Shown piece by piece: positions 13,371 to 26,776 of a DNA stretch of 34,713 nucleotides. The stretch comes from an uncultured Ruminococcus sp. (lineage in GTDB: Bacteria; Bacillota; Clostridia; Oscillospirales; Acutalibacteraceae): NCBI GenBank assembly GCA_902777275.1, contig CACYTI010000021.1, forward strand, positions 1 to 34,713, written 5' to 3'. Under the pieces are notes generated by a model. The model was not told the origin of the DNA. It saw only the letters and a program-made list of their open reading frames with translations, and ran no database searches. The number at the start of each line of letters is the position of its first letter. Within the stretch, counting starts at the first letter, position 1. The position numbers and the translations under genes were made by a program.

Positions 13371-13772
13371 TCAATCGGTTGATTCTTTTTTTATATCCGT
13401 GATCTGTTCCTGTTCAAAAACCTCACGTACCATCGCCTCTAAATCCTCCAATGAGTACCGCAGCCGTTTCGCTTCCTCAAGCGCGCCGATAATATACTTC
13501 TCTTTATACACATCCCGGCGTTCCTTGATCAGCCGGTCCACGGCGCCTTCGGTGACAAACATACCGATCCCGCGCTTTTTGTAAAGAATTCCTTCATCAA
13601 CAAGCAAGTTGAACCCCTTGTTTACCGTTGCTATATTAATATTGTAATCGTTCGCAATGCGCGTGGTGGAAGTTATTTGCTCACCTTCCTTTAATTCGCC
13701 CGATAAAATATAATCCTTTATACCTTCCGCGATCCTGACAAAAATCGGAAGATTGTCTGTAATATTGTTCAT
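13371..13772 (-). CDS. GntR-family transcriptional regulator, YtrA type
   Basis: A 133-aa regulator: an N-terminal GntR winged helix (about 5-75, with GELKEGEQITSTTRIANDYNINIATVNKGF) and a short helical C-terminal tail rather than a large effector domain, which is the YtrA subfamily architecture. The ATG at 13772 has GGAGG 7 bases upstream; the in-frame TTG at 13778 is only 1 base from it and is unlikely. YtrA regulators usually sit in operons with ABC transporters and repress them; none is adjacent here, so this is an orphan. It has a perfect consensus promoter and a direct repeat in its leader, suggesting strong, autorepressed expression. Confidence 0.88.
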   Translation of the reverse strand: MNNITDNLPIFVRIAEGIKDYILSGELKEGEQITSTTRIANDYNINIATVNKGFNLLVDEGILYKKRGIGMFVTEGAVDRLIKERRDVYKEKYIIGALEEAKRLRYSLEDLEAMVREVFEQEQITDIKKESTD

Positions 13773-13793
13773 GCCCAAGCCTCCAAACGTGAA

Positions 13794-13821
13794 ATAGTTA
13801 AGTGTTTGAATAGTTAAGTGT
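13794..13821. promoter_or_regulatory. Direct-repeat operator candidate for the GntR regulator
   Basis: ATAGTTAAGTGT occurs exactly twice (13794-13805 and 13810-13821), a 16-base period, between the predicted start of transcription and the ribosome site of the GntR gene. The placement fits negative autoregulation. Whether YtrA-type dimers would use direct rather than inverted sites here is untested. Confidence 0.5.
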
Positions 13822-13834
13822 CTGTAACGTTATC

Positions 13835-13863
13835 ATTATAACCAATTCAGATATATTTGTCAA
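13835..13863 (-). promoter_or_regulatory. Consensus promoter of the GntR gene
   Basis: TTGACA (13858-13863), exactly 17 bases, TATAAT (13835-13840) on the minus strand: a perfect sigma-A consensus. So strong a promoter on a regulator suggests it is normally held down, consistent with the direct repeats just downstream. Confidence 0.8.
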
Positions 13864-13894
13864 CCGGTTTCAGGGTCTTAAACGATCCCGCACA

Positions 13895-14076
13895 AACAAA
13901 AACAGCCGCCGAAGCGACTGCCTTTGCAAACAAACAATATATCAAATTTAACCAATCATGCTGAATCAGTACAGGCGGTGTTTTTTCAGCGAAGTATGCT
14001 GTCGCTCTTCCATGCGATTAAAAGCTTTGCTTTGTCCCAATCCCTTGTTTCGTTAAGAGGTTGCTTATCTTAGTAC
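13895..14076 (-). ncRNA. Candidate small RNA gene of about 180 nt
   Basis: A self-contained transcription unit on the minus strand: promoter TTGACT-17-TATTAT (14083-14111), predicted start near 14076, and an intrinsic terminator (CAGTCGC-TTCG-GCGGCTG then TTTTTGTTTG, 13895-13920). Between lie several stems, e.g. AAAGC-AAA-GCTTT and AGCGA...TCGCT. The only frame is 15 codons (ATG about 14013, MEERQHTSLKKHRLY) without a good ribosome site. I do not recognise it as 6S, tmRNA, RNase P or SRP RNA. It could be a regulatory RNA or encode the micropeptide. It and the GntR promoter account for most of 13773-14249. Confidence 0.5.
13903..13920 (-). terminator. Terminator of the candidate small RNA
   Basis: Arms CAGCCGC (13903-13909) and GCGACTG (13914-13920) with one wobble pair and a UUCG loop on the minus strand, followed by five T residues and another T run at 13895-13902. 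This is a compact, convincing intrinsic terminator with no protein gene immediately before it. Confidence 0.75.
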
Positions 14077-14082
14077 GTGACT

Positions 14083-14111
14083 ATAATACGCCCTAACTTT
14101 CACAAAGTCAA
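14083..14111 (-). promoter_or_regulatory. Promoter of the candidate small RNA
   Basis: TTGACT (14106-14111), 17-base spacer and TATTAT (14083-14088) on the minus strand. It drives transcription away from the lipid operon and into the non-coding stretch ending at 13895. Confidence 0.6.
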
Positions 14112-14197
14112 CACATTTTCATCAACTTTTTTCAATCCAGAGTCTTGGATATGTTGCACAAGTTCCCATATTATTTTTTGTGCATAACGACAACAAA

Positions 14198-14238
14198 CTT
14201 CCTTCGGTTCCCACATTATAACGGGTCATCAAAGGAAG
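14198..14238 (-). terminator. Probable terminator of the lipid operon
   Basis: CTTCCTT (14198-14204) and AAGGAAG (14232-14238) pair, with an inner CCC/GGG stem, just past the stop of the last hydrolase gene. On the minus strand it is followed by TTTGTTGTC, a modest T tract. Its outer arms match the stronger terminators at 8054-8096 and 26664-26706. Confidence 0.5.
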
Positions 14239-14249
14239 GCTGTGTTTTG

Positions 14250-15260
14250 TTACCTTGTTTTTCTCACTGCATTTTTGTAAAAGCTTATAACGCTGTTCAT
14301 AAACTCTTCGTCCAAAACATTCGCGCGGGCTTTGTCGTCGGGGTTTTCGGTTTCGGCTAAATATCTTGCCGCCTCGCGGCTCAGCCACGCCGAGCTGTGC
14401 GCCGAGCGGTATTGATCGTCTATTTCGACCACGACCGCGTTCGGGTTTGTTATCTCGTCCGCTTTGTTGAGAATACTGATTTCATACGGTATCCTTTCGT
14501 CCCCGTTGCTGCCCACGATCATCACGGGCGTATCGGTGCTGTTTATCGCGCTGACGGCGGACACGTCGGATTTATCGCCGAACAGAAAATAATTTTGCAG
14601 ACACATGAACGGATACTGCGCGTCGGCAAGTATACCGACATATCTTTTCGCACTGCTCCGCATATTCTCGTTAGGGGAGTCAAAGCCCGACACACACACA
14701 ACCGCTCTGATGTCATCCTCATCAAGGAGCGCTGTTGTGACCGCGTAGCCGCCCAGACTGTGCCCGTAAAGAAAAAGCGGTAGCGCGGCAAGGTCTTTTT
14801 CAGATCTGATATACTCAATCGCAGCCACGGTATCTATCCGCGCCTGCGGGATACCCACGGTCCCGCCTCCCTCGCTGCGACCCACTCCCGTGTTATCAAA
14901 GGTAAACACCGAAAAGCCGCTGTCCACAAAACGGAGGATCTCGGGCAGATGACGGTCGGCGCAGGAATTGATCCCGTTCGCCACAAGCACAAGCCCCGCG
15001 CTTTCTCCCGGCGGACGGTAAACAAATCCGCACAGCCTGTTGTCCCCCGAAAAAAAGCTGATCTCGGAGCGGGGATATTTTTCTGCATCTATATCGCTAT
15101 AGGTCAGTTCAAACGCGTTTACGGTGTTTGTGCGGGCAAATATGAAGCGGAACACGATAGCCGAGCCCGCCATTGAAAAAATCACATAGGAAAGCACTGT
15201 CGCAACAAGAATAATACACACCCTCTTTGCGCGGCGTTTGTTTTTTGACAACGTCTGCAT
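14250..15260 (-). CDS. Membrane-anchored alpha/beta hydrolase
   Basis: A 336-aa alpha/beta-hydrolase fold protein with one N-terminal transmembrane helix (about 14-40), the catalytic domain likely outside the membrane. The nucleophile elbow is GHSLGG (S168), followed by a plausible acid in VGSNGDERIP and a His in YRSAHSSAW. The stretch preceding the elbow (FDNTGVGRSEG) is typical of serine esterase or lipase-like hydrolases. The ATG at 15260 has a GAAAGGAA site. It is the last gene of the lipid operon, separated from the previous one by 120 bases with a hairpin and a TATAAT, so it may also be transcribed alone. Substrate unknown; an acyl ester or lipid is inferred only from context. Confidence 0.85.
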   Translation of the reverse strand: MQTLSKNKRRAKRVCIILVATVLSYVIFSMAGSAIVFRFIFARTNTVNAFELTYSDIDAEKYPRSEISFFSGDNRLCGFVYRPPGESAGLVLVANGINSCADRHLPEILRFVDSGFSVFTFDNTGVGRSEGGGTVGIPQARIDTVAAIEYIRSEKDLAALPLFLYGHSLGGYAVTTALLDEDDIRAVVCVSGFDSPNENMRSSAKRYVGILADAQYPFMCLQNYFLFGDKSDVSAVSAINSTDTPVMIVGSNGDERIPYEISILNKADEITNPNAVVVEIDDQYRSAHSSAWLSREAARYLAETENPDDKARANVLDEEFMNSVISFYKNAVRKTR

Positions 15261-15309
15261 ACATACTTTCCTTTCTATGATTTCCGATTTTTTAAAGATT
15301 ATACAAAAT

Positions 15310-15352
15310 GAGCCGTGAAGAGATACAGCGCGTGCTGATCTCTACACAGCTC
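15310..15352. terminator. Long hairpin between the last two genes of the operon
   Basis: GAGCCGTGAAGAGAT (from 15310) pairs with ATCTCTACACAGCTC (to 15352) with two mismatches, closing around an inner CAGC/GCTG stem. T-rich bases follow on either strand (ATTTTGT on the minus strand). It may partly terminate the operon before the last hydrolase, or protect the upstream mRNA. A TATAAT follows at about 15299-15304 on the minus strand, without a clear -35 box. Confidence 0.5.
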
Positions 15353-15380
15353 TTTTGTGGAGTAAGGCACATCAGCAAAA

Positions 15381-15716
15381 TCACTTGATTTCAGACGCTA
15401 CTTTGCTGACAATAGACTCAAAGCCCTTGGGATCGTTGGATGCCGCGACCACGATGATAACGATTAACGCGATCCAGAACACGATAGCACAAATGCTTAT
15501 GATCAAACCCGCAATTGAAAGACGCTTACCGACTCTGACCTGATTGGAAACATCGCCGTAGGATGCGATATAGTTACCGGCCATATTAAGACCGATAATC
15601 GAGAAAATCAGACCGAGAATACCGGTTGATAAGCCGAACGCAAGTCCGAGAATACCGAACACCAGCACCTTTGAAGGGCTGCCCTGAGCAGGCTGAACTT
15701 GTACGTTATTATCCAT
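15381..15716 (-). CDS. Small two-helix membrane protein (DUF4190-like)
   Basis: A 111-aa protein from the ATG at 15716, chosen because AAAGGAG sits 6-7 bases upstream; the longer frame to 15746 has no such site. A short Gln/Pro-rich cytoplasmic tail (NNVQVQPAQGSPSK) precedes two hydrophobic segments rich in Gly, Ile and Leu (about 17-46 and 62-90) joined by a polar loop (YGDVSNQVRVGKRLS). The layout resembles DUF4190-type proteins of unknown role. It is 32 bases after the preceding hydrolase in the lipid operon and may be an accessory membrane component. Confidence 0.75.
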   Translation of the reverse strand: MDNNVQVQPAQGSPSKVLVFGILGLAFGLSTGILGLIFSIIGLNMAGNYIASYGDVSNQVRVGKRLSIAGLIISICAIVFWIALIVIIVVAASNDPKGFESIVSKVASEIK

Positions 15717-15748
15717 TATAATCTCCTTTCCGCGTATAAAACGCAAAT

Positions 15749-16723
15749 TTATTCACCGACAATTTTGTCGGTCATATTATTATTTTCGCATATTTCATGC
15801 AAAAAATCAATAATCTTTTTGTCATATTTTTCGGAAGCGTTAATTTTTATGTGCGAATGCGCTCCCTTTTCAAAATAAACCAACCGCTTAGGCGCATTGC
15901 AACGTTCGTACAAATCCTTTGCACGTTCCGGCAGGGAGTATTTGTCCTCCTTGCTTTGCAGCATGAGTATGGGCTTTTTAAGCTTGGGTATACGGAATAT
16001 CGGGCCGTCGTTTTTGATGTCGTAGCCCGTGAACAGCTTAATATAGCCGCGAACCTCGGGCAGCGCGGGATAGACAGGCTGCTTTGCCTCTTTGATGTGG
16101 TAATACAGACTCTCGTAGAAGCAGGTGAACATACCCTCGGCTGCCATGCCCTGAAGATAATCGGGGCAGTCGTCGGCGGTCAGCGCGAAAAGCGCGTTTG
16201 AAGCGCCTATGCATATGCCGTGCATGAACACAAGGCTGTTGCCGAAGTCGTCGTGCAGCATTTGCGCCCAGCGCAGAATGTCGCGGTGCTCGTTGTAGCC
16301 TAAAGAATTCAGCCTGCCGTCCGATTTTCCGTGTGAACGGTTGTCTATCACTAAAACATTATATCCCGCCGCGCGGTAGGGCTCGGCAAAGTAGTAAGAG
16401 TAAAGCAGCGACTCGGTGCGTCCGGCGATGATTATTGACGCCTTATCAAAGCCGAAGTCAAAATATTCGCCGAACAGGTGATATTTTCCGCTGTACACAT
16501 CTACCTCGCGCTTTTTTTCCGCGTATTTTTCCGCCCAGTCCATACCGATGTGAAACATCCGGGTTATCTCTTTGTCCTTGGGCAGGCTGCATTTGCGCCG
16601 CCACTTGCTTTTGCGGGTGCGAACTAAAAGGATCACATATATACCCGCAGGAATAATTACCAAGGGCGCCAAAACTAAAAAAAACGCCGCGATACCGATA
16701 AGTAACCAAATCCAAAAACTCAT
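15749..16723 (-). CDS. Alpha/beta-hydrolase with Cys at the nucleophile elbow
   Basis: A 324-aa membrane-anchored protein of the alpha/beta-hydrolase fold. One N-terminal transmembrane helix (about 5-34) is followed by a cap-less domain with family landmarks NVLVIDNRSHGKSDGR (122-137). The elbow reads HGICIGAS, so the usual serine is C171. An acid in SKEDKYS and a histidine in KGAHSHIKI complete a possible triad. Cys in this place is seen in dienelactone-hydrolase-type enzymes but is rare in this membrane-anchored group, which normally has GxSMG, as the sister protein at 19340-20275 has. It may be a thioesterase or acyltransferase-like enzyme, or catalytically weak. Starts 12 bases after fakA, with its ribosome site (TGAGG) overlapping the fakA stop. 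Confidence 0.82.
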   Translation of the reverse strand: MSFWIWLLIGIAAFFLVLAPLVIIPAGIYVILLVRTRKSKWRRKCSLPKDKEITRMFHIGMDWAEKYAEKKREVDVYSGKYHLFGEYFDFGFDKASIIIAGRTESLLYSYYFAEPYRAAGYNVLVIDNRSHGKSDGRLNSLGYNEHRDILRWAQMLHDDFGNSLVFMHGICIGASNALFALTADDCPDYLQGMAAEGMFTCFYESLYYHIKEAKQPVYPALPEVRGYIKLFTGYDIKNDGPIFRIPKLKKPILMLQSKEDKYSLPERAKDLYERCNAPKRLVYFEKGAHSHIKINASEKYDKKIIDFLHEICENNNMTDKIVGE

Positions 16724-16735
16724 ATTTTCCTCAAT

Positions 16736-18376
16736 TCAAGCCAGTCCGATTATCCAGTGGTACACGCTTTGTCCGCCGTCAACAAACTCTATCTCAAGCA
16801 TCGGCCAGCGCTCCTCTATTGCCTCTCTCAGAACGCCCTCTCGGTCGGGAGCGGAGTCGGCTCCCCTGAAAATTACACAGGTTTCCCTGTCGTCGATATC
16901 CTCCACGGTGCCGAGTCCGTCTATGATAGCCTGAAGGCGGTCGTTGTTTACGCAAACGATCTTATTGTCTATCAGCAAGATCTCCTCGCCCTTTTTGCAG
17001 CTTATTTCGTGATAGGCGTAGTCGCGCGAGGCGGTCGTTTCGCAAAGCGTCACGGTGTTTTCAAGACCTCCGCGCATTTCGCTGAGTCTGAAAGCAATGT
17101 CGTCGCTGTTCGGAATGTCCATCGCTATGGCGAAATATCCCTCGGCTACACTGCGCGAAGGCAGCACCGTTATGTTGTCAGCGCCGTAAAGCCCGACCGC
17201 CTGCTCCGCCGCCAAAATGACGTTGGGATTGTTTGGCAGCACAACCACCGCGTCAGCGTCAAGCTGCGCAAAGGCGTCGATGAACTCCTGAGAGGATGTG
17301 TTCATCGTTGAGCCGCCGTCAATGACCGCGTCGCAGCCTAAATCCGAGAAAAGCTTTTTCATGCCCTCTCCGTTCACCACCGCGACCGCAGCTAACCTTT
17401 TGTGCTTGCGGGTTTTATTCAGCTCTTTATTGTGCTCGTTGTGCTGAACCTGCATATTCTCAAGCTTGAAGGTCAAAAACTCGCCGTATTCCTGGCTGAG
17501 AATGATAATCTTCGCGGGTATAAGCGTGTGGATATGCACCTTGACGCGCTTGCCGTCCTGAACCGCGACTATCGAATTGCCGTACAGCTTCAAGTCCTCT
17601 ATATAAGAACTTATTCTGAAATGGCGGTTATATTTGGGGGCGTTCATAAGCTGCAAAATAAATTCCATGCAGTAGCCGTCCTCAAACGCGCTGTTCTCGT
17701 TGAACAAGTCAAAATTTATCTGCTTGGGCGGCTTGGCGGCAACGGTGTCGGACGGGAGCCTCACATCGCCGTAGAGATATTTGAGCATACCCTCCGCTAT
17801 GGCTATAAAGCCGAGCGCTCCGCTGTCAACCACGCCCGCTTCCTTCAATACCGGAAGAAGCTCGGGGGTCATGGCGAGCGATTTTTTCATCTCGGCTATA
17901 TACATAGACAAAAGCTGCTCTATCGTAGTGGAGCGGTTTATCTGTCCGCGAATATGCTCGATACCCTCGCGGGTCACCGTGAGGATCGTTCCCTCGGCGG
18001 GCTTCACCACCGCGCTGTAGGCGGTGCGGTAGCCCTTGATAAGGGCGTTGCGAAGCTCTCCCACGCCCGCCTGTGCACAGCGTGAAAGCTCAATGTAAAA
18101 GCCCTTAAAAAACTGGGAAAGAATAACGCCCGAATTTCCCCTCGCGCCGAGAAGCATTCCGCCGCTGAGCAGCTTAAGGTATTCGCCCGCGTTCATTTTT
18201 GTTTTTGCGTAGCGAATACCGTTTTCAAGCGTCAAACGCATATTGGTGCCGGTGTCGCCGTCCGAAACAGGGAAGACATTGAGCCTGTTGATCGTTTCCT
18301 CTTGGGTTTGCAGATTCGCAAGCCCGTTTTTCATCATTTGTTCAAGCTGAAAGCCGTTTATACGTTTTGTGCTCAT
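16736..18376 (-). CDS. fakA: Fatty acid kinase catalytic subunit FakA (DAK2 domain, YloV family)
   Basis: FakA phosphorylates a fatty acid held by FakB to give acyl-phosphate for phospholipid synthesis by PlsX/PlsY. The 546-aa length is typical. The N-terminal DAK2 nucleotide domain has PVSDGDTGTNMRLT (36-49) with the metal-binding Asp pair (D39, D41), then LLGARGNSGVILSQFFKG (about 75-92). The C-terminal half has the family stretch DGGSTMNTSSQEF and VLPNNPNV. ATG at 18376 lies 9 bases after the FakB-like gene. In most Firmicutes fakA sits by Asp23 and rpmB genes; placement within an acyl ligase and acyltransferase operon, next to a FakB, is unusual and supports a dedicated lipid path. Confidence 0.93.
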   Translation of the reverse strand: MSTKRINGFQLEQMMKNGLANLQTQEETINRLNVFPVSDGDTGTNMRLTLENGIRYAKTKMNAGEYLKLLSGGMLLGARGNSGVILSQFFKGFYIELSRCAQAGVGELRNALIKGYRTAYSAVVKPAEGTILTVTREGIEHIRGQINRSTTIEQLLSMYIAEMKKSLAMTPELLPVLKEAGVVDSGALGFIAIAEGMLKYLYGDVRLPSDTVAAKPPKQINFDLFNENSAFEDGYCMEFILQLMNAPKYNRHFRISSYIEDLKLYGNSIVAVQDGKRVKVHIHTLIPAKIIILSQEYGEFLTFKLENMQVQHNEHNKELNKTRKHKRLAAVAVVNGEGMKKLFSDLGCDAVIDGGSTMNTSSQEFIDAFAQLDADAVVVLPNNPNVILAAEQAVGLYGADNITVLPSRSVAEGYFAIAMDIPNSDDIAFRLSEMRGGLENTVTLCETTASRDYAYHEISCKKGEEILLIDNKIVCVNNDRLQAIIDGLGTVEDIDDRETCVIFRGADSAPDREGVLREAIEERWPMLEIEFVDGGQSVYHWIIGLA

Positions 18377-18385
18377 AAAAACCTT

Positions 18386-19321
18386 TTACTCTGCGGAGTT
18401 TAAAAATCCGACCAGCAGCGCCTTTTCTTCCTCAAGATCCCTTGAGATCGGCTTGCCGATGTAATACGCAGCCATAAGTCCGGGACCCACGTTTATTCCC
18501 GTGGCGGGAAATACGTCTACAATGCGCACTTCCTTGGGCTTGATGGTCTCTTCGATCATCTGCTTATATTTTTCCGCCTGCGGCAGACGGTTTGACTGTG
18601 CGACGAAAATCATCTGCTCCTCGGGCTTTTCGATCGTAGCGGCGATATATTTCAGCAGCACGGAATATGCCTTTTTTGCGCCCTTTGCCTTGCCGATGGG
18701 TGTGGTCATGCCGTTGTAGTCAAACTCGCCAATCGGCTTTATTCCGACGATAGTACCCATAAACGCGGCGGCATGGTTCAACCTGCCTTTTTTTGCGACG
18801 AATGAAAGGTCATCAAGCCAGCCGGCCTGATGATAACGGCATTTGTTTTCTTCGATCCAAGCCGTCACTTCATCAAGCGACTTGCCCTCGTCGCGGAGCT
18901 GAGCCGCCTTTACGACCATAAGTCCGAAGCCGGGGCCGAAGCGCAGGGAATCTACAACATTTATTTTCGCGTCGCAGTATTTTTCCAAAACCTGATCACG
19001 GGCTTTTACCGCAAAGTCATACGTTCCGCTCATTCCGGAGGACATTGTAATGACCATTACATCCTTTCCCTGCGAAACGTATTTTTCATACACAGCAGCG
19101 AACATATCGGGGTTCGCCGGAGAGGTCGAGTAGCCGTTGGGATTTTTCTTGAGCTTGCTGTAAAAGTCCACCCTGTCCATATCCTTCCAGCTAAGAAACT
19201 GCGGAATCTCGCTGCCGTCGGGCAGATGAATATGACCCAAAACGGGCACTATGTCAAATTCCCTGAGCATATCCTCGTTGAGGTCGCTTGTTCCATCCGT
19301 GATAAGGATAAATTTCTTCAT
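18386..19321 (-). CDS. DegV family fatty acid-binding protein (FakB)
   Basis: DegV/FakB proteins bind one fatty acid in a deep pocket and present its carboxylate to FakA. This 311-aa protein has the family marks: ITDGTSDL near the N-terminus, YSTSPANPD (64-72), ITMSSGMSGTYDFA (about 96-109), VVDSLRFGPGFGLMV, and a C-terminal DVFPATGINVGPGLMAAYYIG. ATG at 19321, AAAGG upstream. It directly precedes fakA with 9 bases between, so a matched kinase pair is likely. Which fatty acid it prefers cannot be read from sequence. Confidence 0.92.
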   Translation of the reverse strand: MKKFILITDGTSDLNEDMLREFDIVPVLGHIHLPDGSEIPQFLSWKDMDRVDFYSKLKKNPNGYSTSPANPDMFAAVYEKYVSQGKDVMVITMSSGMSGTYDFAVKARDQVLEKYCDAKINVVDSLRFGPGFGLMVVKAAQLRDEGKSLDEVTAWIEENKCRYHQAGWLDDLSFVAKKGRLNHAAAFMGTIVGIKPIGEFDYNGMTTPIGKAKGAKKAYSVLLKYIAATIEKPEEQMIFVAQSNRLPQAEKYKQMIEETIKPKEVRIVDVFPATGINVGPGLMAAYYIGKPISRDLEEEKALLVGFLNSAE

Positions 19322-19339
19322 TGTATTTCAGTCCTTTGC

Positions 19340-20275
19340 TTAATTAAAATATATATTTATAAAATCGGTAAGCTCTTTTTCCGTTTTTTCGGGGTTCTTT
19401 AAAATGGACAGCGTATGCGGAGCGCCCTCAACGAGCAGCAGCTTTTTTGTTGATGAACAGGCGTTGTAATTCGCAAGTCCCCAGCGGTACTCCACCGTTT
19501 CGTCGTTGGTGCCGTGCAGAAAAAAAGCAGGAACGCGCGCGTGAGCGAGCGAGTCGGTCGTCGCGCTCTTTATATCGACGCGCAAAAACAGCCTCGCAAG
19601 GATACGCTGGGCGGGAACCATAATTCCCGGAATGTGATTTTTGCGCACGTCGCGCCGCATTTGCTCATAAACCGAGTAAAATCCGCTGTCAATGACCATC
19701 GCCTTGACCGCCGTTCCGTTCAGCTTGTCGCTCGCGTAAGACACCGAAGCGCCGCCCATAGACACGCCGTAAAGCAGAATTTCCTCCGCGCCCAACTCCT
19801 GCGCGCGGTTTATCCAGCTAAGCACGTCGTACTGTTCGCGGATACCGATCGTCGTCCATCTGCCGTCGCTCCTTCCGTGAGAGCGGTGACAGGCGAGCAG
19901 TACATTGAAGCCGCTCTTGTATAAAAACCGCGCGTGAGCCGAAAGATTGGTATAAAGCTCGGCGCCGATCCCGTGAAAAAGTATAGCCGTGCGGTGGGTA
20001 CCCCGGTCGTAATAATCCCCGCGCAGGGTCAGCCCGTCATACGACAGAACATCGACCTCGGTGTGCGGCTTGGCTTTGAGCCACTCGCGCGCCTCGGCTA
20101 TCCTTCCGAGGTACGGAATATAGTAGTGGTTCTTGAATTTTTCCATATCGTATTCTTCAAACGGCACCGCTTTTTTTCTTCCGAAAACCGCGAAAAAAAT
20201 CAGCAGCGCGGGAGCTAAAAGAAATATGACAAACGCAGCCAAAGCAGCGATTATTATCATCGTCACGATATTCAT
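19340..20275 (-). CDS. Membrane-anchored alpha/beta hydrolase, serine type
   Basis: A 311-aa protein from ATG 20275 (GGGAG 7 bases upstream; the TTG at 20278 is too close). A strong N-terminal transmembrane helix (about 4-32) is followed by an alpha/beta-hydrolase domain. The nucleophile elbow is GVSMGGAS (S172), with an oxyanion stretch LFHGIGAE, a probable acid in HGTNDETVE and His in GAPHTLS. It resembles the YqkD/BAAT-like group of bacterial hydrolases of unknown substrate and is clearly paralogous in layout to the protein at 15749-16723, with shared NVLLACHRSHGRSDGR-type motif. It sits between the LRAT-like gene and fakB in the lipid operon. Confidence 0.87.
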   Translation of the reverse strand: MNIVTMIIIAALAAFVIFLLAPALLIFFAVFGRKKAVPFEEYDMEKFKNHYYIPYLGRIAEAREWLKAKPHTEVDVLSYDGLTLRGDYYDRGTHRTAILFHGIGAELYTNLSAHARFLYKSGFNVLLACHRSHGRSDGRWTTIGIREQYDVLSWINRAQELGAEEILLYGVSMGGASVSYASDKLNGTAVKAMVIDSGFYSVYEQMRRDVRKNHIPGIMVPAQRILARLFLRVDIKSATTDSLAHARVPAFFLHGTNDETVEYRWGLANYNACSSTKKLLLVEGAPHTLSILKNPEKTEKELTDFINIYFN

Positions 20276-20287
20276 CAAACCACTCCC

Positions 20288-21139
20288 TTATTCAAAATAT
20301 TTTCCTCCCATGAGGAAGGAGGAGCCGTCCTCGACCCAAAAGTATTTTACGGCGGAGCTGTTTTTGCCGCTTACCTCAACGGGCATTCGGGGATTTTTTA
20401 ACGTTCGGCAAACGCCCTTGCGGCGGATATCTTTGCCCAAACGCAGGCTGACGTCGGCGTTGGAAACCGCAACGGCGGCTAACCCGTCGCGTTCGGACAG
20501 AGAAAAGCTGAACGAATCGCAGACCCATTTGCCCATAAGCTGCCTTTTAAAGCCCGCGTTTTTTAAATCGGTGTTGAATGAGCGCCCTGCGGCATAGCCC
20601 AAAAGCTTCCACAAAAATCTCGCGGCGTTCCGCTCTTCGGGTGAGGAAATGTTGTCTATCTCCGCTTTGCGCCTTTCCGGAAAAATCCCGACGCCGCTGA
20701 CGTTTTCGGGGATCACAGCTATATAGACGTCGCAAATCGGGCGGCTCAGCCAGCGTCGGCGGACGTCCTCCGCCTGAAGACACCTTGCCTCGCCAAACAC
20801 ACATTCGTTCACAAAATGCTCGCAGTTGTTGTGGATTATGTTATAGCCGCCTTTTCCTATCGCGGCGCGGGCGCGGGAAACGGTTTCCTCAGCAGGCAGC
20901 CTTCGCTTTGACTCAGAGCGGTCAAGAACCGCAGTTTCGACGATGCAGCCGCAGGCAAACACGTCTATATCGGTCGCTAACACGGAAGGCTCGCCCTCCT
21001 TAGCGCGGTTCTCCGCTGTGGGCGGCAGCCCGAACTGGATCACTTCATCCTCGCTGACAAAAATGCCGTAGTGATACAGCGAGCCTAAACGGATGCGGAT
21101 CATATCGCCCGCTCTGCACTGAACAGGCTCCCATTTCAT
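20288..21139 (-). CDS. LRAT/NlpC-like acyltransferase-fold protein with decayed PPTase-like tail
   Basis: A 283-aa protein. The N-terminal half (about 8-140) has the LRAT/NlpC thiol fold: GDMIRIRLGSLYHYGIFV gives the catalytic His (H23) and HNNCEHFVNEC gives the catalytic Cys (C106). LRAT-type enzymes take an acyl group onto Cys and pass it to an acceptor; some cleave phospholipids. The C-terminal part (about 165-283) resembles a Sfp-type phosphopantetheinyl transferase in spacing (FSFSLSERDGLAAVAVS, then KYFWVEDGSSF), but the GVDIE metal motif reads SLRLG and WTxKE reads WVEDG, so it is probably inactive. The ATG at 21139 overlaps the acyl carrier protein stop (ATGA). The LRAT call is firm; the PPTase-like call is inference. 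Confidence 0.75.
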   Translation of the reverse strand: MKWEPVQCRAGDMIRIRLGSLYHYGIFVSEDEVIQFGLPPTAENRAKEGEPSVLATDIDVFACGCIVETAVLDRSESKRRLPAEETVSRARAAIGKGGYNIIHNNCEHFVNECVFGEARCLQAEDVRRRWLSRPICDVYIAVIPENVSGVGIFPERRKAEIDNISSPEERNAARFLWKLLGYAAGRSFNTDLKNAGFKRQLMGKWVCDSFSFSLSERDGLAAVAVSNADVSLRLGKDIRRKGVCRTLKNPRMPVEVSGKNSSAVKYFWVEDGSSFLMGGKYFE

Positions 21140-21393
21140 TGCAATCTTTCTCCTATATATTCCACGACGTCGCCGACTGTCTTAAACTCGTTCATGCCCA
21201 CGTTGTCAAAGCGGATGCCGAACTCCTCCTCAGTGGCTATTATCAAATAGAGCATATTGACCGAGGTCAAGCCCAAATCAGTCTGCAATCGGGTCTGCTC
21301 GTTTACGGAGTCGATGCTTTCAAAGCTGCCGTCGCCGGCGGAAAGAAGTATCTCTTTGAGTTTTTCGGTTATTTCTGTTTTATTTACTGACAT
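21136..21393 (-). CDS. Acyl carrier protein
   Basis: An 85-aa stand-alone carrier protein of the phosphopantetheine-binding fold. The attachment serine is S44 in DLGLTSVNMLYLI; TSV replaces the DSL usual in housekeeping AcpP, which suggests a specialised carrier. Acidic helix 2 (IIATEEEFGIRFDN) is typical. It overlaps the ligase gene before it (by 10 bases) and the LRAT-like gene after it (by 4), so it is made with them and probably carries acyl groups loaded by one of the AMP-forming ligases. Confidence 0.92.
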   Translation of the reverse strand: MSVNKTEITEKLKEILLSAGDGSFESIDSVNEQTRLQTDLGLTSVNMLYLIIATEEEFGIRFDNVGMNEFKTVGDVVEYIGERLQ

Positions 21394-22880
21394 TTTTTAT
21401 ATCTCACAATCTTCATGCTCGGAGTGCGTTCAAAGTCTGATTTTCTAATCACAATTTTGCTTACGCGCTCAAAGGTGGGAAGGCTTTCGTTGATTTTTTG
21501 CAGCGCCTCGGTAATATAGGTGTTTACGTCGTCTGTTGCAAGCTTCTGCACCTCGGCGGCGCGCGGAACTACCTCAAGCGACAAAAAGCGCCTTCCGTTT
21601 TCGTCCTCGTCCTCGAACACCTGCGAATCCTGAATAAAAGGCAGGGTGTTGAACTCCGCCTCAAGCTCGGCGGGAGAAATGTTTTCGCCCGTGGGCAGCA
21701 CGATCACCTCTTTTATTCTTCCCGTGATGTACAAAAAGCCGTCGTCGTCGATTTTTACTAAATCGCCTGTTTTGAACCAGCCGTCCTCATAGGCGTCGGG
21801 CTCGGCGCAGCCGACATAGCCGTCCATCATGTTTTTGCCCTTGAGCCAAAGCTCGCCGTCAACGATCCTATATTCCATCTCGGGGAAAATAAGACCGACC
21901 GAACCGGGCTTGTTGAGGTTTTCGGGATTGCCCGAAACGAGATTCGCTGACTCGGTGAGGCCGTAGCCGGGATAGAGCGCTACGCCCGCCTTGTCATACT
22001 CCTCAACGAGGTACTGAGGAACGTTCGCCGCTCCGCAGATGATGGTTTTAAGGCTGTCGCCGAACATATTCTTTCCGAATTTTTTCGAGAGCGAAAGCGC
22101 CATATCCGCAAGCGCGGGAACGAGCACCATGATAGTCGGCTTGAACATAGCAGCGTCGCGGAACATATTTCGGTTGTCGCGGCAGATGTGAAGAGTGCTT
22201 CCGGTATAAAGCGAGGCGAGCATATTTCTGATTAATCCGAAAACGTGCGACAGCGGAAGCACCAGCATATAGCGCTGTTCAAACGTGCCGGGAACACCTA
22301 AACAACTGTTGATAACGCCCTGCATTACGGCGGTGTTCGACAGCAGAGCGCCCTTTGGTCTGCCCGTGGTGCCGCCTGTCATTATGATAGTGCAGCCGTC
22401 CTTGCCGTCGCACTCGGCGGCGGGGCATTTCTCTCCCGAGGTCACCGACGGAGAGATAACCGTAAGGTCGGGGCAAAGGCTCGCCTTCTGCGCGTCAAGA
22501 GTTATCAATGCGTCATAGCCAAACATAAGGCGGGTACCCGCTACGGCTTTCTCGTCAAGATGAGCGGGCAAAACCGCCGCCGTGCAGCCCAATGTCACAA
22601 CGGCTAAAAACGCCTTTACAAAATCATATGAATTGGGAAGGAGAATAGCCACGCGCGATTTCTCGGCGATGCGGGGTTTCAAAACGGCGCGGAAATCCGC
22701 TACGTCGTCCGCGAGAGCCGCGAAGGTGTATTCCTTTCCGTCGTCCGAAACGGCGGTCAAACCGGCGTATTCAGCCGAGCGTTCCTCCCACATCTTAGCC
22801 AAGGTTTCATAAGGCTTGATGCGGCTGAAGGTCTCCTCGCCCGTGTAAGCACGGTATTGCTCCAAAGTGTTTGCAATCAT
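21384..22880 (-). CDS. Acyl-AMP ligase (ANL superfamily), likely fatty acyl-ACP or -CoA ligase
   Basis: A 498-aa adenylate-forming enzyme that activates a carboxylic acid as acyl-AMP and passes it to a thiol. Motifs are intact: P-loop MTGGTTGRPKGA (167-178), YGLTE (306-310), GWFKTGDL (367-374) with the ribose-binding Asp, GRIKEVI hinge (387-393), and the catalytic A10 lysine in TPSMKIVRYK (about K490). It is immediately followed by, and overlaps, the acyl carrier protein gene, so acyl-ACP is the likely product. ATG at 22880 has GAGG upstream. The 62 bases before it contain a TATAAT without a clear -35 box. Confidence 0.9.
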   Translation of the reverse strand: MIANTLEQYRAYTGEETFSRIKPYETLAKMWEERSAEYAGLTAVSDDGKEYTFAALADDVADFRAVLKPRIAEKSRVAILLPNSYDFVKAFLAVVTLGCTAAVLPAHLDEKAVAGTRLMFGYDALITLDAQKASLCPDLTVISPSVTSGEKCPAAECDGKDGCTIIMTGGTTGRPKGALLSNTAVMQGVINSCLGVPGTFEQRYMLVLPLSHVFGLIRNMLASLYTGSTLHICRDNRNMFRDAAMFKPTIMVLVPALADMALSLSKKFGKNMFGDSLKTIICGAANVPQYLVEEYDKAGVALYPGYGLTESANLVSGNPENLNKPGSVGLIFPEMEYRIVDGELWLKGKNMMDGYVGCAEPDAYEDGWFKTGDLVKIDDDGFLYITGRIKEVIVLPTGENISPAELEAEFNTLPFIQDSQVFEDEDENGRRFLSLEVVPRAAEVQKLATDDVNTYITEALQKINESLPTFERVSKIVIRKSDFERTPSMKIVRYKKCQ

Positions 22881-22942
22881 TTTCTATTTCCTCTCTATTG
22901 TAAATAATATACCGTTAATTGATTATATGCCTGAGGAACAAT

Positions 22943-23593
22943 TCATAAATTCCTTGCTATCTCCTCAAGCTGCTCCTCGCGCTGTCTGAGAAGCTCGGTG
23001 GCTTCTTTTATTTTTTTGAACGCCGGACCGTCCGCGCACATGGCGGCTACGTCCACGGGCTCGCCGATGACCGCTTTCAGGCGGCTGTACCAGTGCTCCC
23101 TCGGCTTCATAAAAATCGGCACCACGGGGCGCTTGCTCTGCATCGAGAGCAGCACCATGCCCGACTTGAACTCGGTCATATCTCCGCCCTCGCCGTTCAC
23201 ATGACCCTCGGGAAACAGGGTGACGACCTTACCATCCTTCATGCTTTCGGTGATCACGCGGAACGAGTTGATATTGAAGTTTTCCGCGTCTATCGGTATA
23301 AGGCAGCCTGCCGCGCGAAAAAACGGTCCCGCCTTTGTCTTTAAAAACGCCTGGTGGCAAACAAAAAACTGGCGTCGGTACCAAACAACGAACATTGTAA
23401 ATGCCGGATCTACAAAGCTTGTGTGGTTTGAGATGACCAGCGCGCCGCCGCGTATGCGTTTTTTTGCCGCTTTTGAAGCGTAACGGATTTTCGGCCGTAA
23501 CCATATCACACCCGGAAGTGCGCCCGTTACACGCATAAAATCATAAAAAAAGTATTTAAAAGTAAAAAGCTTAGCTTTTTTTGATCCGCTCAT
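22943..23593 (-). CDS. PlsC-type acyltransferase 1
   Basis: A 216-aa member of the 1-acyl-glycerol-3-phosphate acyltransferase family, which moves an acyl chain from acyl-ACP or acyl-CoA onto a glycerolipid or similar hydroxyl. Block I is NHTSFVD (H57, D62; the HX4D catalytic pair) and block III is FPEGHVNGEG. Hydrophobic N-terminal stretch suggests membrane association. Starts inside the end of the previous PlsC gene (23-base overlap), ATG 23593 with GGGAG upstream. Two adjacent but quite different PlsC proteins suggest acylation at two positions or on two acceptors. Confidence 0.9.
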   Translation of the reverse strand: MSGSKKAKLFTFKYFFYDFMRVTGALPGVIWLRPKIRYASKAAKKRIRGGALVISNHTSFVDPAFTMFVVWYRRQFFVCHQAFLKTKAGPFFRAAGCLIPIDAENFNINSFRVITESMKDGKVVTLFPEGHVNGEGGDMTEFKSGMVLLSMQSKRPVVPIFMKPREHWYSRLKAVIGEPVDVAAMCADGPAFKKIKEATELLRQREEQLEEIARNL

Positions 23594-24212
23594 ACAGCTC
23601 CCGCTCCAAACCGATAATTTTTTCTCTCATAGCGTCGGATATCCGCTCGATGTTCTCCTTTTCGGACAGCTCCTCATCAACAAGCTCACGCGCGCAAATC
23701 GGTTTTCCGATTATGACCCTTGCGCGTTTAAGGCTGAAATATTTTCCGTTTGTAAACACGGGGATCATCGGCGCGCCGCTGAGAAGCCCCAAATACGCCG
23801 CGCTCGGCTTGAACGGCAGCGGACGCTCCTCGTCCTTCAGCGGAAGGCGGCTTTCGGGGAAAATCAAAACCACTCCGCCTTTTTCAAGAATCTCCTGAGA
23901 ACGCGAAACAAAGCCAAAGTTAAAGCCCGTGCGGTCAACCTTTATTCCGCCCATCATTTTAAGGAAAAGTCCGAGCGGCTTTTTCTGAAACAGCACCTCC
24001 GCCATTTGGGCGCGGAGCGTGCGAAAGAAAAACACAAACAAATAGACGCCGTAATCCCAAACCGAGGTATGGTTTGAATATATGATCGCCGCGCCCTTTA
24101 TCCGACGGCTCTGAACGTTTTTGTCCTCGTAATACACCTTTGTGCGGAATATGGGAAGCTGCACGAAATAACCCGTGATTTTCACAAAGGTATTCCAAAA
24201 TCTAATAAACAT
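23571..24212 (-). CDS. PlsC-type acyltransferase 2
   Basis: A 213-aa acyltransferase of the PlsC family. The HX4D motif is NHTSVWD (H48, D53) and the block III motif is IFPESRLP with Ser instead of the common Gly after Glu (FPEGT). A hydrophobic segment (YGVYLFVFFF) follows the first motif. It overlaps the ligase-carrier gene upstream by 11 bases and the next PlsC gene downstream by 23. Acceptor and acyl donor are unknown; context favours acyl groups from the carrier domains encoded next to it. Confidence 0.88.
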   Translation of the reverse strand: MFIRFWNTFVKITGYFVQLPIFRTKVYYEDKNVQSRRIKGAAIIYSNHTSVWDYGVYLFVFFFRTLRAQMAEVLFQKKPLGLFLKMMGGIKVDRTGFNFGFVSRSQEILEKGGVVLIFPESRLPLKDEERPLPFKPSAAYLGLLSGAPMIPVFTNGKYFSLKRARVIIGKPICARELVDEELSEKENIERISDAMREKIIGLERELYERIKKS

Positions 24213-26136
24213 CGTTCTGCGCTGCCTTTATAAAGTCATAAAGCTCCTGCACCGTGCTAAGGCTTTTGCCGTCGCTCTGCGGGAACGCGACCGAAAAATC
24301 CTCTTGAAGCTTCGCGATGACCGCAAAGTAGTCCAGACTGGTGCCGCCCAAGTCGGCAAAGAAATCCGACTGCGGCGCGACCTCGCTTATATCCCTGTCG
24401 AGAGCTGCCGCGATGACCTGACGCAGGTGGAGCATAAGCTCGTCCTGCTCTTCCTCGCTGCCCGCCGAGGACGGGTCGGCTACGTTCAGCCTGCCCTCCC
24501 TCAGGTCGGAGGCGAGCCGCCTGCGGTTTAGCTTGAATTCATCTCCCGTCATAAGCGGGTCGTAAATATATACTATCCTGCCGATTTGCCCCCTCAGGTT
24601 CAAAGCGGCGATTTTTTCTTTAAGCTCTTTATCGAGCGTTCCAAACCTCTGCGCGGTAGTGTAACGGTTGACCGACACAAGCAGGACCGGCGTTTTTCCG
24701 TCGGTCGTCAGGCATACCCCGTTCGTTCCCGGGATCCTGAGCTGAGGCTCAACGAGATTCGGGTTTAGGTTTTCCCCGTTCGCCGAAACTATCAAATCAT
24801 CTGTTCTGCCCAAAATGCGGTACCTGCCGTTTTCACAGACCGCCAAGTCGTGAGTATTGAACCACTCGTTTTTGTCGGTGACGGTCTTTTTGCCGTCCTC
24901 TATAATATATTTCGCAATAACCTTTCCGCGCACAAGCAGCTCTCCGCTGTCGTTTATTTTGTACTCGGCATAGGTCATCGGTCTGCCCACAGAGCAGGAG
25001 TTAAGCACCCTCGCGTCCTCGGAAAGCTCCACCGAGGTTATGCCTATCTCTGTCATGCCGTAGCCGTCGGCAAGGTGATAGCCTATCGCGTTGAAGAACC
25101 GGATCACCTCGGGGCGAATTGCGCTGCCGCCCGTTATCAAAAAGCAAATGCTTTCGCCGAACAGGTTCTCCCTGACCTCTTTGAACGCCTTTTTGGAAAA
25201 AGCGCGGCCGAGAGCGGGCGTTTTGCTCAGCTTTCTTGATATTTTCATTCCCTTTAGGAACTTGTTATAGGTTTTTTCGCCTCTGTTTTTTATGGTTTTT
25301 ATCGCCTGGTCGTAAACCGTTTCCCAAAAAAGCGGCACCGCGAAAATGTGCGTCACCTTGTGACGCTTGATGGTGTTTACGATGGTCTGCGGCTGCATAT
25401 CGCGCAGCTCCACGAACGCCCGCGAGAAAAACGCGAACCAGATATACATCGCGAACAGCCCGAACACATGATAAAACGGCAAAAAGCAGAGCTGCTTTAT
25501 GTATCCGTCGTAGTGGCGCTTCGCTACGGCACACTCCTTTATTATCTGGCAGGTGTCATGCATCTGATAGCGGAACTCCTCCGCCGAGTACGCGCAGATT
25601 TTAATATGGTCCGAGGTGCCCGACGACATGACCATAAGCTCTTCGCCGAATACGTCCGGAGTATACGCCTTATCCGCTTTTTTTATCGACTCAGCCAAAA
25701 CGGTCCTGACGGAATACTCTCTTCCGTCGGAAATGACAGCCGCCGCTCCGCAGTCCTTTAATGCCTGTTCGAGAGAGCTGCCGCTCAGCCTTAAATTCAT
25801 CAGCAGGGGTCTGTATCCCGAAATCAAAATCGCCCAGAACATCTCTATCCAAAGCAGGCTGTTGTTCATACTCAGCCCGACGACCGAGCCGAAGGGCAAA
25901 TCAAGCGTGCTTTTGAGCGTATTTGCTAAACGGAGAATATCCTCCCGCGCCTCGCCGTAGGTGGTTTGTCTTATGCGGTAGCCCTCGCTCTTTTCGTACA
26001 TCAGGTTTTCCCGTTCGCTGAACATCATCTCAAAAAGCAGGTCAAAGCCCGCTTTCGATTCGTCGAGCCTTTTCAGCTTTGACTCGACAAACGAATCTAT
26101 ATCGTTAAATTGTCCTAATCCCAAGTCTTTTTCCAT
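24202..26136 (-). CDS. Acyl-AMP ligase fused to an acyl carrier domain
   Basis: A 644-aa two-part protein, first gene of the lipid operon. Residues 1-545 are an ANL-type adenylating domain with YGMTEIG (about 359-365), EWFNTHDLA, ILGRTDDLI and a catalytic lysine in FKLNRRRL (K535). The P-loop is divergent: SSGTSDHIKI where TSGTTGxPKG is usual. Residues about 565-640 are a carrier domain with attachment serine S600 in DLGGTSLDYF. The enzyme probably activates a fatty acid and loads it on its own carrier. The ATG at 26136 is chosen; GTG at 26142 is possible, and neither has a strong ribosome site. The fused domain makes soluble CoA a less likely acceptor. Confidence 0.88.
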   Translation of the reverse strand: MEKDLGLGQFNDIDSFVESKLKRLDESKAGFDLLFEMMFSERENLMYEKSEGYRIRQTTYGEAREDILRLANTLKSTLDLPFGSVVGLSMNNSLLWIEMFWAILISGYRPLLMNLRLSGSSLEQALKDCGAAAVISDGREYSVRTVLAESIKKADKAYTPDVFGEELMVMSSGTSDHIKICAYSAEEFRYQMHDTCQIIKECAVAKRHYDGYIKQLCFLPFYHVFGLFAMYIWFAFFSRAFVELRDMQPQTIVNTIKRHKVTHIFAVPLFWETVYDQAIKTIKNRGEKTYNKFLKGMKISRKLSKTPALGRAFSKKAFKEVRENLFGESICFLITGGSAIRPEVIRFFNAIGYHLADGYGMTEIGITSVELSEDARVLNSCSVGRPMTYAEYKINDSGELLVRGKVIAKYIIEDGKKTVTDKNEWFNTHDLAVCENGRYRILGRTDDLIVSANGENLNPNLVEPQLRIPGTNGVCLTTDGKTPVLLVSVNRYTTAQRFGTLDKELKEKIAALNLRGQIGRIVYIYDPLMTGDEFKLNRRRLASDLREGRLNVADPSSAGSEEEQDELMLHLRQVIAAALDRDISEVAPQSDFFADLGGTSLDYFAVIAKLQEDFSVAFPQSDGKSLSTVQELYDFIKAAQNDVY

Positions 26137-26165
26137 ACACACGACCCGTTCCGTTTATTTCGGTA

Positions 26166-26189
26166 TTTTACGGTTTAAGCGCCGTAAAA
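26166..26189 (-). promoter_or_regulatory. Inverted repeat in the lipid operon leader (TTTTACGG arms)
   Basis: Perfect 8-base arms, TTTTACGG and CCGTAAAA, flank 8 bases, roughly 30-50 bases before the first gene of the operon. It could be an operator for a lipid-responsive regulator or a leader hairpin covering the ribosome site region. It does not match a FapR or FabT site I know. Confidence 0.45.
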
Positions 26190-26197
26190 AACACTTT

Positions 26198-26211
26198 GTT
26201 AATTTATTAAC
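26198..26211 (-). promoter_or_regulatory. Short palindrome in the lipid operon leader (GTTAAT arms)
   Basis: GTTAAT-TT-ATTAAC is a perfect palindrome lying just downstream of the predicted transcription start. Position and symmetry suit a repressor operator. Being AT-rich it could occur by chance. Confidence 0.4.
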
Positions 26212-26238
26212 CGTGAAATACATATGCACTCAAATTAG

Positions 26239-26267
26239 ATTATACTAAAACCTGCGACAAAATTCAA
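26239..26267 (-). promoter_or_regulatory. Promoter of the lipid operon
   Basis: TTGAAT (26262-26267), 17-base spacer, TATAAT (26239-26244) on the minus strand. It is the only clear promoter before the twelve-gene run down to 14250. The leader is about 95 nt and contains the two inverted repeats at 26166-26189 and 26198-26211. Confidence 0.7.
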
Positions 26268-26311
26268 GCTTTTTTGACTTTTTACTAAATTTCACATTTT
26301 GACTTTTACTC

Positions 26312-26385
26312 AAGGCAACACCGCACAATTCGCGGCGCACGCCTTGCTTCGCAATCCGCAAACCGTAATTATGCGGTATTGCCTT
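26312..26385. repeat. Long imperfect inverted repeat element, about 74 bp
   Basis: Arms at 26312-26330 and 26367-26385 are 19 bases each and match at 17 positions (AAGGCAA-Y-ACCGCA-Y-AATT). The centre is GC-rich (CGCGGCGCACGCC). It looks like a small dispersed palindromic element of the REP or MITE type. No protein is encoded. The rest of 26268-26657 shows no gene; 26610-26660 is rich in the CAATTGTC/CAATTATCC type of repeats often seen between genes. Confidence 0.5.
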
Positions 26386-26657
26386 AATGGGTTATTTGAA
26401 GATAGTATAAAATTGATTGAATCGAATATTGAATAATATGTTCATTCCCTTGATATTGTATGGACGAGCCTGTGTGTTTGCCCTTTGCACCGACGTTGTT
26501 TCCGCGTCCGATTGTTAATTAAGATCATAAACATTTGATTCAGCGTTCACAGGCGCACAAGGTAACCGCCATATCCCACAGCATTACAAATCAGGAGCGG
26601 AGCGTCAACCGAAATTGTCAATTGTCCGTTCAGCCCATGCAAAGTCAATTATCCATT

Positions 26658-26706
26658 GAAAAACCTTCCTTCAATTCCCGCGTTAAACCGCGCCGTTGAA
26701 GGAAGG
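26658..26706 (-). terminator. Terminator of the two-component operon
   Basis: CCTTCCTTCAA (26664-26674) and TTGAAGGAAGG (26696-26706) are perfect 11-base arms with an inner CGCG/CGCG stem; five T residues follow on the minus strand. Nearly the same arms occur in the glgP terminator (8054-8096). Opposite-strand reading also passes through the stem but without a good T run. Confidence 0.8.
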
Positions 26707-26740
26707 CTTATTTTATAGATATTTATCAATAGGCGCCATG

Positions 26741-26776
26741 GGTGCAGCGTCACGCTGCACCGTCGGCTCAGCCGAC
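26741..26776. repeat. Pair of adjacent perfect hairpins
   Basis: GGTGCAGCG-TCA-CGCTGCACC (26741-26761) and GTCGGCT-C-AGCCGAC (26762-26776) abut each other, starting 5 bases past the histidine kinase stop on the minus strand. With the terminator beyond them they make three successive hairpins. They may protect the 3' end of the mRNA or be a dispersed palindromic repeat. Confidence 0.6.

Follow-up and report, generated by a model that had tools for sequence, protein, structure and literature searches.

The gene run

This analysis concerns a series of lipid genes in an uncultured Ruminococcus sp., the genome of which amounts to 2.59 Mb in 57 contigs. The window, that is the whole stretch of DNA analysed, covers positions 1 to 34,713 of contig C21. 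Within it, twelve minus-strand reading frames follow one another from position 26142 down to 14250, and an initial annotation had described them as a twelve-gene operon in which acyl-AMP ligases, carriers and PlsC enzymes are combined with FakA, FakB and hydrolases. An open-reading-frame check places all twelve frames at these positions, and assignment by Pfam and the NCBIfam cut-offs agrees with the families named, gene 11 having sub-cut-off matches only. As detailed below, both activation routes, by AMP ligases and by FakAB, lie in one conserved unit, as had been proposed. In the order of the run, the genes are:

Gene 1, 24202..26142, minus strand: acyl-AMP ligase with C-terminal carrier domain (PF00501, 130.8 bits; PF00550, 42.2 bits)
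Gene 2, 23571..24212, minus strand: PlsC-type acyltransferase with NHTSVWD and FPESRLP, motifs also found in related loci (PF01553, 47.6 bits)
Gene 3, 22943..23593, minus strand: PlsC-type acyltransferase with NHTSFVD and FPEG (PF01553, 61.9 bits)
Gene 4, 21384..22880, minus strand: acyl-AMP ligase with TGGTTGRPKG, YGLTE and TGD motifs in the alignment (PF00501, 187.9 bits)
Gene 5, 21136..21393, minus strand: free acyl carrier protein with the attachment site DLGLTS (PF00550, 27.8 bits)
Gene 6, 20288..21139, minus strand: LRAT/PLAAT-like cysteine enzyme (about residues 1-130) with an apparently decayed Sfp-type phosphopantetheinyl transferase (PPTase; about residues 150-283)
Gene 7, 19340..20278, minus strand: N-terminally membrane-anchored α/β hydrolase with serine nucleophile, GVSMG (PF12146, 49.5 bits)
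Gene 8, 18386..19321, minus strand: FakB/DegV-type protein (PF02645, 194.8 bits; TIGR00762 above cut-off; solved DegV/FakB relatives)
Gene 9, 16736..18376, minus strand: FakA-type kinase with Dak2, middle and C-terminal domains (three FakA domains by Pfam)
Gene 10, 15749..16723, minus strand: membrane-anchored α/β-hydrolase-fold protein with Cys171, Asp260 and His289 (Pfam alpha/beta hydrolase)
Gene 11, 15381..15746, minus strand: small membrane protein (sub-cut-off matches)
Gene 12, 14250..15260, minus strand: membrane-anchored α/β hydrolase with serine nucleophile, GHSLG (PF12146, 55.4 bits)

The genes are tightly packed. Four junctions are overlaps, of 11 (genes 1-2), 23 (2-3), 10 (4-5) and 4 nucleotides (5-6), and six are gaps of 62 (3-4), 9 (6-7), 18 (7-8), 9 (8-9), 12 (9-10) and 2 nucleotides (10-11). 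Thus ten of the eleven junctions overlap or leave at most 62 nucleotides, while the last, between genes 11 and 12, spans 120. Some starts probably lie inside the frames: ATG 26136 for gene 1, near which its homologues begin, ATG 20275 for gene 7, and ATG 15716 for gene 11, which is preceded by AAAGGAG, gives 111 residues and would widen the gap before gene 11 to 32 nucleotides.

Conservation of the unit

Gene 1 was searched in 59 genomes, the window's own and its relatives, at a threshold of E 1e-60. Twelve genomes match, the own one included, and all belong to the same genus (12 of its 36 members). Inspection of the eleven other loci revealed six that keep eleven or twelve genes in order, two cut by contig ends and three variants. 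All twelve genes stand in order in L023, L025, L026, L027 and L029; in L024 eleven remain, and an unmatched frame of 171 residues takes the place of gene 11. The cut loci retain the first seven (L022) and the first nine genes (L028) before the contig ends. Across the six same-order genomes the larger proteins are about 37-80% identical. The gene-1 homologue of L025 (14122-16041) contains one in-frame TGA.

The three variants (L030, L031, L032) share 28-35% identity in gene 1 and keep the ligase-carrier, PlsC and carrier genes. Two of them, L030 and L032, also have FakB, FakA and, directly 3′ of FakA, a PlsX-type gene, which Pfam recognises in both and for which the NCBIfam cut-off is reached in L032 only. 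In L030, Pfam identifies a free PPTase and, close to the ligase, a glycosyltransferase of family 2; in L031 both genes, and in L032 the glycosyltransferase, were named from their translations only.

A second set of loci was obtained by scanning named contigs with the ligase alignment, where the best 80 of 423 confirmed candidates were retained. Their titles name metagenome-derived or uncultured organisms, among them Clostridia, Ruminococcus, Oscillospiraceae and Lachnospiraceae, and in a few cases others such as Bacillales, Mageeibacillus and Christensenella. Many of these loci end early; in 56 the sequence extends for 9 kb or more beyond gene 1. Because the set partly overlaps with the same-genus genomes (L039, L046, L059), the two series of counts are not independent. 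PlsC gene 2 follows gene 1 in all 80 loci, adjoining it in 65, behind a transporter in 14 and further on in one. The remaining parts are counted below in all 80 loci and, where a second figure is given, in the 56 long ones:

First PlsC (gene 2): 80; 56
Second PlsC (gene 3): 67; 46
Second ligase (gene 4): 58; 43
Free carrier (gene 5): 62; 48
LRAT-type gene (gene 6): 60; 46
Hydrolase (gene 7): 48; 42
FakB (gene 8): 51; 45
FakA (gene 9): 47; 45
Cysteine hydrolase-fold protein (gene 10): 47; 45
Small membrane protein (gene 11), 3′ of gene 10: 24
Hydrolase (gene 12), downstream: 16
Transporter, see below: 37; 32

The initial annotation would have been undermined if the genes had been adjacent in this one strain only. 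This did not occur, since six of the eleven same-genus relatives and most of the 80 loci keep the order. Furthermore, when loci are compared in pairs, the distances for gene 1 and for each of nine other parts are correlated (r 0.64-0.90), and for each part none of 200 label permutations gave as high a value. Such correlated divergence points to common inheritance, and either linkage or shared host ancestry would produce it. A shortened set, in which neither a second PlsC nor ligase 4 was called, lies behind a conserved block of genes read as pheS/pheT-like in L088, L089, L090, L102, L105 and L107.

A sample of 394 genomes of the order yields 38 whose ligase match reaches E 1e-40, from 23 of 168 genera; 24 of the 38, the window's own included, score above 250 bits. 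A sample of the phylum yields 2 of 398 at E 1e-70, among them the window's own genome. Among the loci inspected, two have strong matches: L134 holds all parts and the transporter, gene 2 being uncalled there because a plus-strand frame was kept instead, and L135 holds seven parts before its contig ends. In three with weaker ligase-carrier matches, from other genomes of the order or phylum (L133, L136 and L137, at 433, 321 and 371 bits), the operon is absent. The ligase alone is therefore rejected as a marker of the operon at a distance, and only the stronger matches are presumed to hold the unit.

Ligases, carriers and PlsC enzymes

AMP ligases load acyl groups onto carriers, and PlsC enzymes take them from a carrier or from CoA. 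In an alignment of eleven gene 1 sequences, Ser602 of the carrier is invariant and Lys537 nearly so. Genes 2 and 3 both combine PF01553 with the NHx4D and FPE motifs by which PlsC proteins are defined. The best NCBIfam match of gene 3 is the PlsC part of an acyl-ACP--phospholipid O-acyltransferase (NF006386, E 1.1e-18, below cut-off), and gene 4 resembles, likewise below the NCBIfam cut-off, the ligase part of such acyltransferases.

The LRAT-type enzyme and its PPTase domain

Gene 6 had been annotated as an LRAT-type protein. The LRAT domain is confirmed (PF04970, 68.2 bits against a gathering score of 24.3), its profile also matches PLAAT/HRASLS proteins, and the family carries an NCEHF motif. 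His23 and Cys106 are invariant in 10 of 10 and 24 of 24 aligned sequences, and the cysteine is found in all 60 LRAT genes of the named loci. The C-terminus had escaped notice: by sequence, it is a decayed Sfp-type PPTase which is intact in many relatives.

Several lines of evidence point to this origin. In L079 and L069, Pfam places a PPTase (ACPS) domain at the end of the LRAT protein, and a profile built from full-length fused and free copies finds the domain on 35 of the 60 LRAT genes. Of these, 26 have at least 328 residues; seven, of 275-286 residues, count as decayed and show neither the VGVDIE-like nor the WTKKE-like pattern; and two (L050, L095) are shorter frames which run past the end of the sequence. 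The other 25 genes encode the LRAT domain alone (120-155 residues). Residues 152-230 of the window copy, which was kept out of the training set, score 77.8 bits with this profile. Both patterns are missing from the window copy and present in many full-length relatives, some full-length copies also missing one or both; PF01648 does not detect the domain in window gene 6. In the structure model (mean predicted local distance difference test score 79, residues 241-283 low), Foldseek retrieves PLAAT enzymes and, lower down, human and Sfp-type PPTases (2cg5, 1qr0), with best E values of 1.9e-6 and 3.3e-4.

The fusion ties the gene of an acyl enzyme directly to the carriers. Because the fused domain is decayed in this host, a separate PPTase elsewhere would have to activate its carriers. 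The sole PF01648 match of the genome is a 197-residue frame on contig C5, which we infer to be a stand-alone PPTase.

Hydrolase-fold proteins

Three hydrolases had been listed, and all three proteins do have the α/β-hydrolase fold. The nucleophiles of genes 7, 10 and 12 were counted by alignment column, and for gene 10 the column holds Cys171 instead of serine in 49 of 49 sequences. Because this cysteine is invariant, gene 10 may encode an acyltransferase, acyl transfer being as likely as hydrolysis. Its structural neighbours are mixed, with esterases, lipases and a thioesterase all close, and do not fix its function. A gene 10 homologue lies immediately 3′ of FakA in 46 pairs among the loci. 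Charge balance predicts the catalytic side of gene 12 outside the cell (16 of 17) and that of gene 10 inside. Gene 12 also moves: of 26 plus-strand copies across the 80 loci, 16 lie downstream and 10 upstream of the ligase. By its placement, gene 12 is only loosely linked to the unit.

The Fak arm and the host genome

FakAB produces acyl-phosphate. The annotation of genes 8 and 9 as FakB and FakA holds at the family level, whereas the equivalog cut-offs are missed. Gene 9 passes the YloV subfamily model (TIGR03599, 480.4 bits, cut-off 396.1), contains DGDTGTN and matches the solved structure 7w7h over nearly its full length (E 1e-88), but reaches 365.6 of the 975 bits required by the FakA_VfrB equivalog. 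Similarly, gene 8 scores 108.4 bits with the FakB1 equivalog, for which the cut-off is 350.

In total, the host genome has three Dak2 genes, five DegV genes, one PlsX and two ketoacyl synthases, along with two further PF01553 genes besides genes 2 and 3. Of the other two Dak2 genes, the first neighbours a RecG-like gene and the second belongs to a FakA-FakB-PlsY-like cluster; the names RecG and PlsY come from translations. Since the genome holds these genes and PlsX, the Fak pair of the operon is additional to what appears to be the normal Gram-positive route.

A transporter in related loci

One component could not be seen in the window: 37 of the 80 loci add an MFS_2 transporter (PF13347; family F0) of the major facilitator superfamily (MFS), while Pfam finds no MFS transporter among the twelve genes of the window. 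The copies fall into lengths of 443-504 (24 copies) and 624-706 residues (14 copies). The long form, found in L079 (12096-14084) and 13 further loci, directly follows gene 1, and in none of these 14 is FakA found downstream in the sequence covered. It looks as if the long transporter form and the Fak arrangement were alternatives. A single transporter sequence gave no match in the PDB at 0.01. A profile of 16 sequences gave three weak PDB matches, the best being the lysophosphatidylcholine symporter MFSD2A (E 0.0013).

Transcription signals and flanking genes

Three elements were considered for the transcription of the run:

26239..26267, minus strand: candidate sigma-70 promoter, TTGAAT-17-TATAAT (10 of 12 consensus matches; consensus only)
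15262..15380, minus strand: strong hairpin that separates gene 11 from gene 12 (z -3.94, minimum energy -35.5 kcal/mol, none of 200 shuffles as good)
14198..14238, minus strand: terminator-like hairpin 3′ of gene 12 (z -2.3, 3 of 200 shuffles as good; poor T-run)

The promoter, initially called a good one, is present. That it drives the run is only plausible, because region 12200-26900 holds 30 promoter-like sites against 14.4 in shuffles. The proposed terminator folds better than most shuffles, but its T-run is poor. The internal hairpin, one arm of which ends in AUUUUGU, is possibly a terminator or attenuator. As it is located in the 120-nucleotide gap before gene 12, this gene may not be fully co-transcribed. 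The hairpin and the movable place of gene 12 (upstream of the ligase in 10 of 26 copies) suggest a core unit of genes 1-11. At gathering scores, the window contains no Rfam element.

Homologues of the flanking two-component, GntR and Sir2 genes are absent from eight reference loci, whose own flanks are short; on this ground these genes were rejected as members of the unit. The GntR-type regulator gene (13371-13778) lies behind a sigma-70 promoter match of 12 out of 12 at 13863-13835. Further away, 199-3291 encodes an alpha-amylase with CBM26 and a type I dockerin; such amylases occur in starch-degrading Ruminococcus. The 1413-residue protein at 3608-7849 has several repeat copies in its second half, as read from the translation, and no Pfam match above cut-off.

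Proposed function and alternatives

From gene content, order, conservation, motifs and domain decay we infer the reactions, the direction of flow and the kind of product. With a chance that we put close to even, the unit would be a self-contained system for fatty-acid salvage and lipid re-acylation, which works on its own carriers, apart from the carrier of fatty-acid synthesis. The hydrolases, with gene 12 probably acting outside and gene 7 at the membrane, would free fatty acids from lipids, as would the PLAAT-like gene 6 in the role of a phospholipase A. On the cytoplasmic face, the two ligases would adenylate these fatty acids and load the two dedicated carriers, while in a second route FakB would bind the fatty acid and FakA phosphorylate it. 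The two PlsC enzymes would then transfer chains from the carriers to two sites on a lyso- or glycero-lipid, and the cysteine enzyme of gene 10 would shuttle acyl groups among acyl-phosphate, carrier or lipid. In many relatives, the MFS_2 transporter may supply lysolipid and the PPTase fused to the PLAAT-like enzyme may activate the carriers. A private carrier with its own PPTase would let these chains stay apart from the pool of fatty-acid synthesis, which favours either a special lipid or salvage selective for chains from outside. Salvage and re-acylation appear somewhat likelier because of FakAB, the three lipase-fold proteins, the PLAAT-like enzyme and the MFS_2 transporter of relatives.

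Several observations weigh against salvage and re-acylation. Substrate and product are deduced, and the lipid cannot be named from the sequence. FakA after the ligase is missing from 11 of the 56 long loci, nine of which have the long transporter form, so the Fak pair is not obligatory; L098, one of the eleven, carries FakB, a transporter, FakA and the cysteine protein upstream. A second ligase is missing from the sequence covered in 22 of the 80 loci, some because they are cut. The transporter, in turn, is missing from the window operon and from 43 of the 80 loci; its match to MFSD2A is weak and followed by a sucrose transporter, and its NCBIfam matches are sugar-symporter models below cut-off. 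At the third catalytic position, the LRAT protein has glutamine in the window and alanine in many relatives, and a PLAAT-type phospholipase activity is assigned to it by extrapolation from mammalian enzymes. The Aas equivalog cut-offs are missed, since NF006386, NF005291 and NF005959 match in segments (e.g. 66.5 against 1221 bits). Lastly, plain salvage has no obvious need for two ligase-carrier pairs, which favours a special product.

This last point leads to an alternative which, although less probable, deserves serious consideration: a specialised cluster for an acylated product, which may be an N-acyl lipid, a glycolipid or an unusual glycerolipid and which the MFS_2 protein perhaps exports. 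The PlsC enzymes, supplied by both ligase-carrier pairs, would place two chosen chains on a head group, and the LRAT or cysteine enzyme would add or move a third. A PPTase within the cluster, two carriers and two ligases do recall specialised pathways, family-2 glycosyltransferases lie near all three variants and free PPTases near two of them, and the distribution among the 36 genus genomes is patchy. However, the twelve proteins contain no Pfam match to a condensation domain, ketosynthase or oxidoreductase, and FakAB with three lipase-fold proteins would better suit lipid turnover. Repair or detoxification seems improbable. Here, gut lysolipids and fatty acids arising from phospholipases or bile would be taken up or re-acylated, with a protective effect on the membrane like that of LplT-Aas in E. 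coli. This analogy (PMC11416262), the transporter of the related loci and the gut or rumen source named in many of the 80 record titles speak for it; the loci without a transporter, the window among them, speak against it, and the collection itself may be rich in gut genomes. That unrelated lipid genes are adjacent by chance is highly improbable. The flanking genes do indicate that neighbours can be arbitrary here, but the order is conserved in distant relatives and divergence is correlated, which rules this explanation out.

A further reading, less likely than not, is a lipid-acylation pathway of gut-type Clostridia that has yet to be described. In this pathway, fatty acids would travel on private carriers and the cysteine enzyme, coupled to FakA, would acylate a lipid from acyl-phosphate, or exchange acyl-phosphate with carrier-bound acyl. 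Acyl-phosphate would thereby gain a third outlet in addition to PlsX and PlsY, leading to a membrane lipid so far unassigned in these bacteria. If the general proposal is true, many uncultured Clostridia handle fatty acids and lysolipids from outside in a separate acyl economy on private carriers. This would account for the co-occurrence of both activation routes, open genetic access to the lipids of these bacteria and allow a test of whether PlsX and PlsY are the sole outlets of acyl-phosphate.

Comparison with known systems

The component families are already known; their assembly here was not found in the literature searched. Judged by the titles and abstract openings of the papers listed, neither the gene set nor the PLAAT-like/PPTase fusion appears to be described there; as subscription journals lay mostly outside the coverage, this is weak evidence of novelty.

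Mammalian PLAATs end in a C-terminal membrane helix. Gene 6 shares with PLAAT/HRASLS proteins the LRAT-type domain, the conserved histidine and cysteine and the NCEHF motif; unlike them, its family adds a PPTase domain and sits with carriers and ligases. PLAAT/HRASLS enzymes have phospholipase A1/2 as well as O- and N-acyltransferase activities that proceed through an acyl-thioester (PMC7387801). The LRAT-type group also links gene 6 to S. aureus LnsA, which its authors assign to the same permuted NlpC/P60 group (PMC7387801).

The OaaA/OaaACP/OaaC gut fatty-acid-amide clusters of Coprococcus eutactus resemble the unit in having a free-standing acyl-activating enzyme and a free carrier acting on fatty acids. 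According to PMC13142362, such clusters use a free-standing condensation domain. A fatty-acid-amide cluster was ruled out, as none of the twelve proteins matches this domain.

With the FakAB-PlsX-PlsY route of Staphylococcus and Enterococcus, the unit shares FakB/DegV and FakA, as well as a PlsX beside FakA in two variant loci. In contrast to that route, the Fak genes are here joined to AMP ligases and carriers, a cysteine α/β-hydrolase-fold protein comes right after FakA, and the genome has two more Dak2 genes.

The LplT-Aas system of E. coli and other Gram-negatives, which flips and re-acylates lysolipid (PMC11416262), serves as the working analogy. Both combine a PlsC-type acyltransferase with an acyl-AMP ligase with carrier, and 37 of the 80 loci have an MFS transporter. 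Here, however, PlsC and ligase are separate genes instead of one fused protein, there are two ligases, two PlsC enzymes and dedicated carriers, and FakAB, an LRAT-type enzyme and hydrolases are added; relatives have a fused PPTase and a transporter of the MFS_2 kind. By this analogy, our best reading is that the operon would work like LplT-Aas yet is no member of it.

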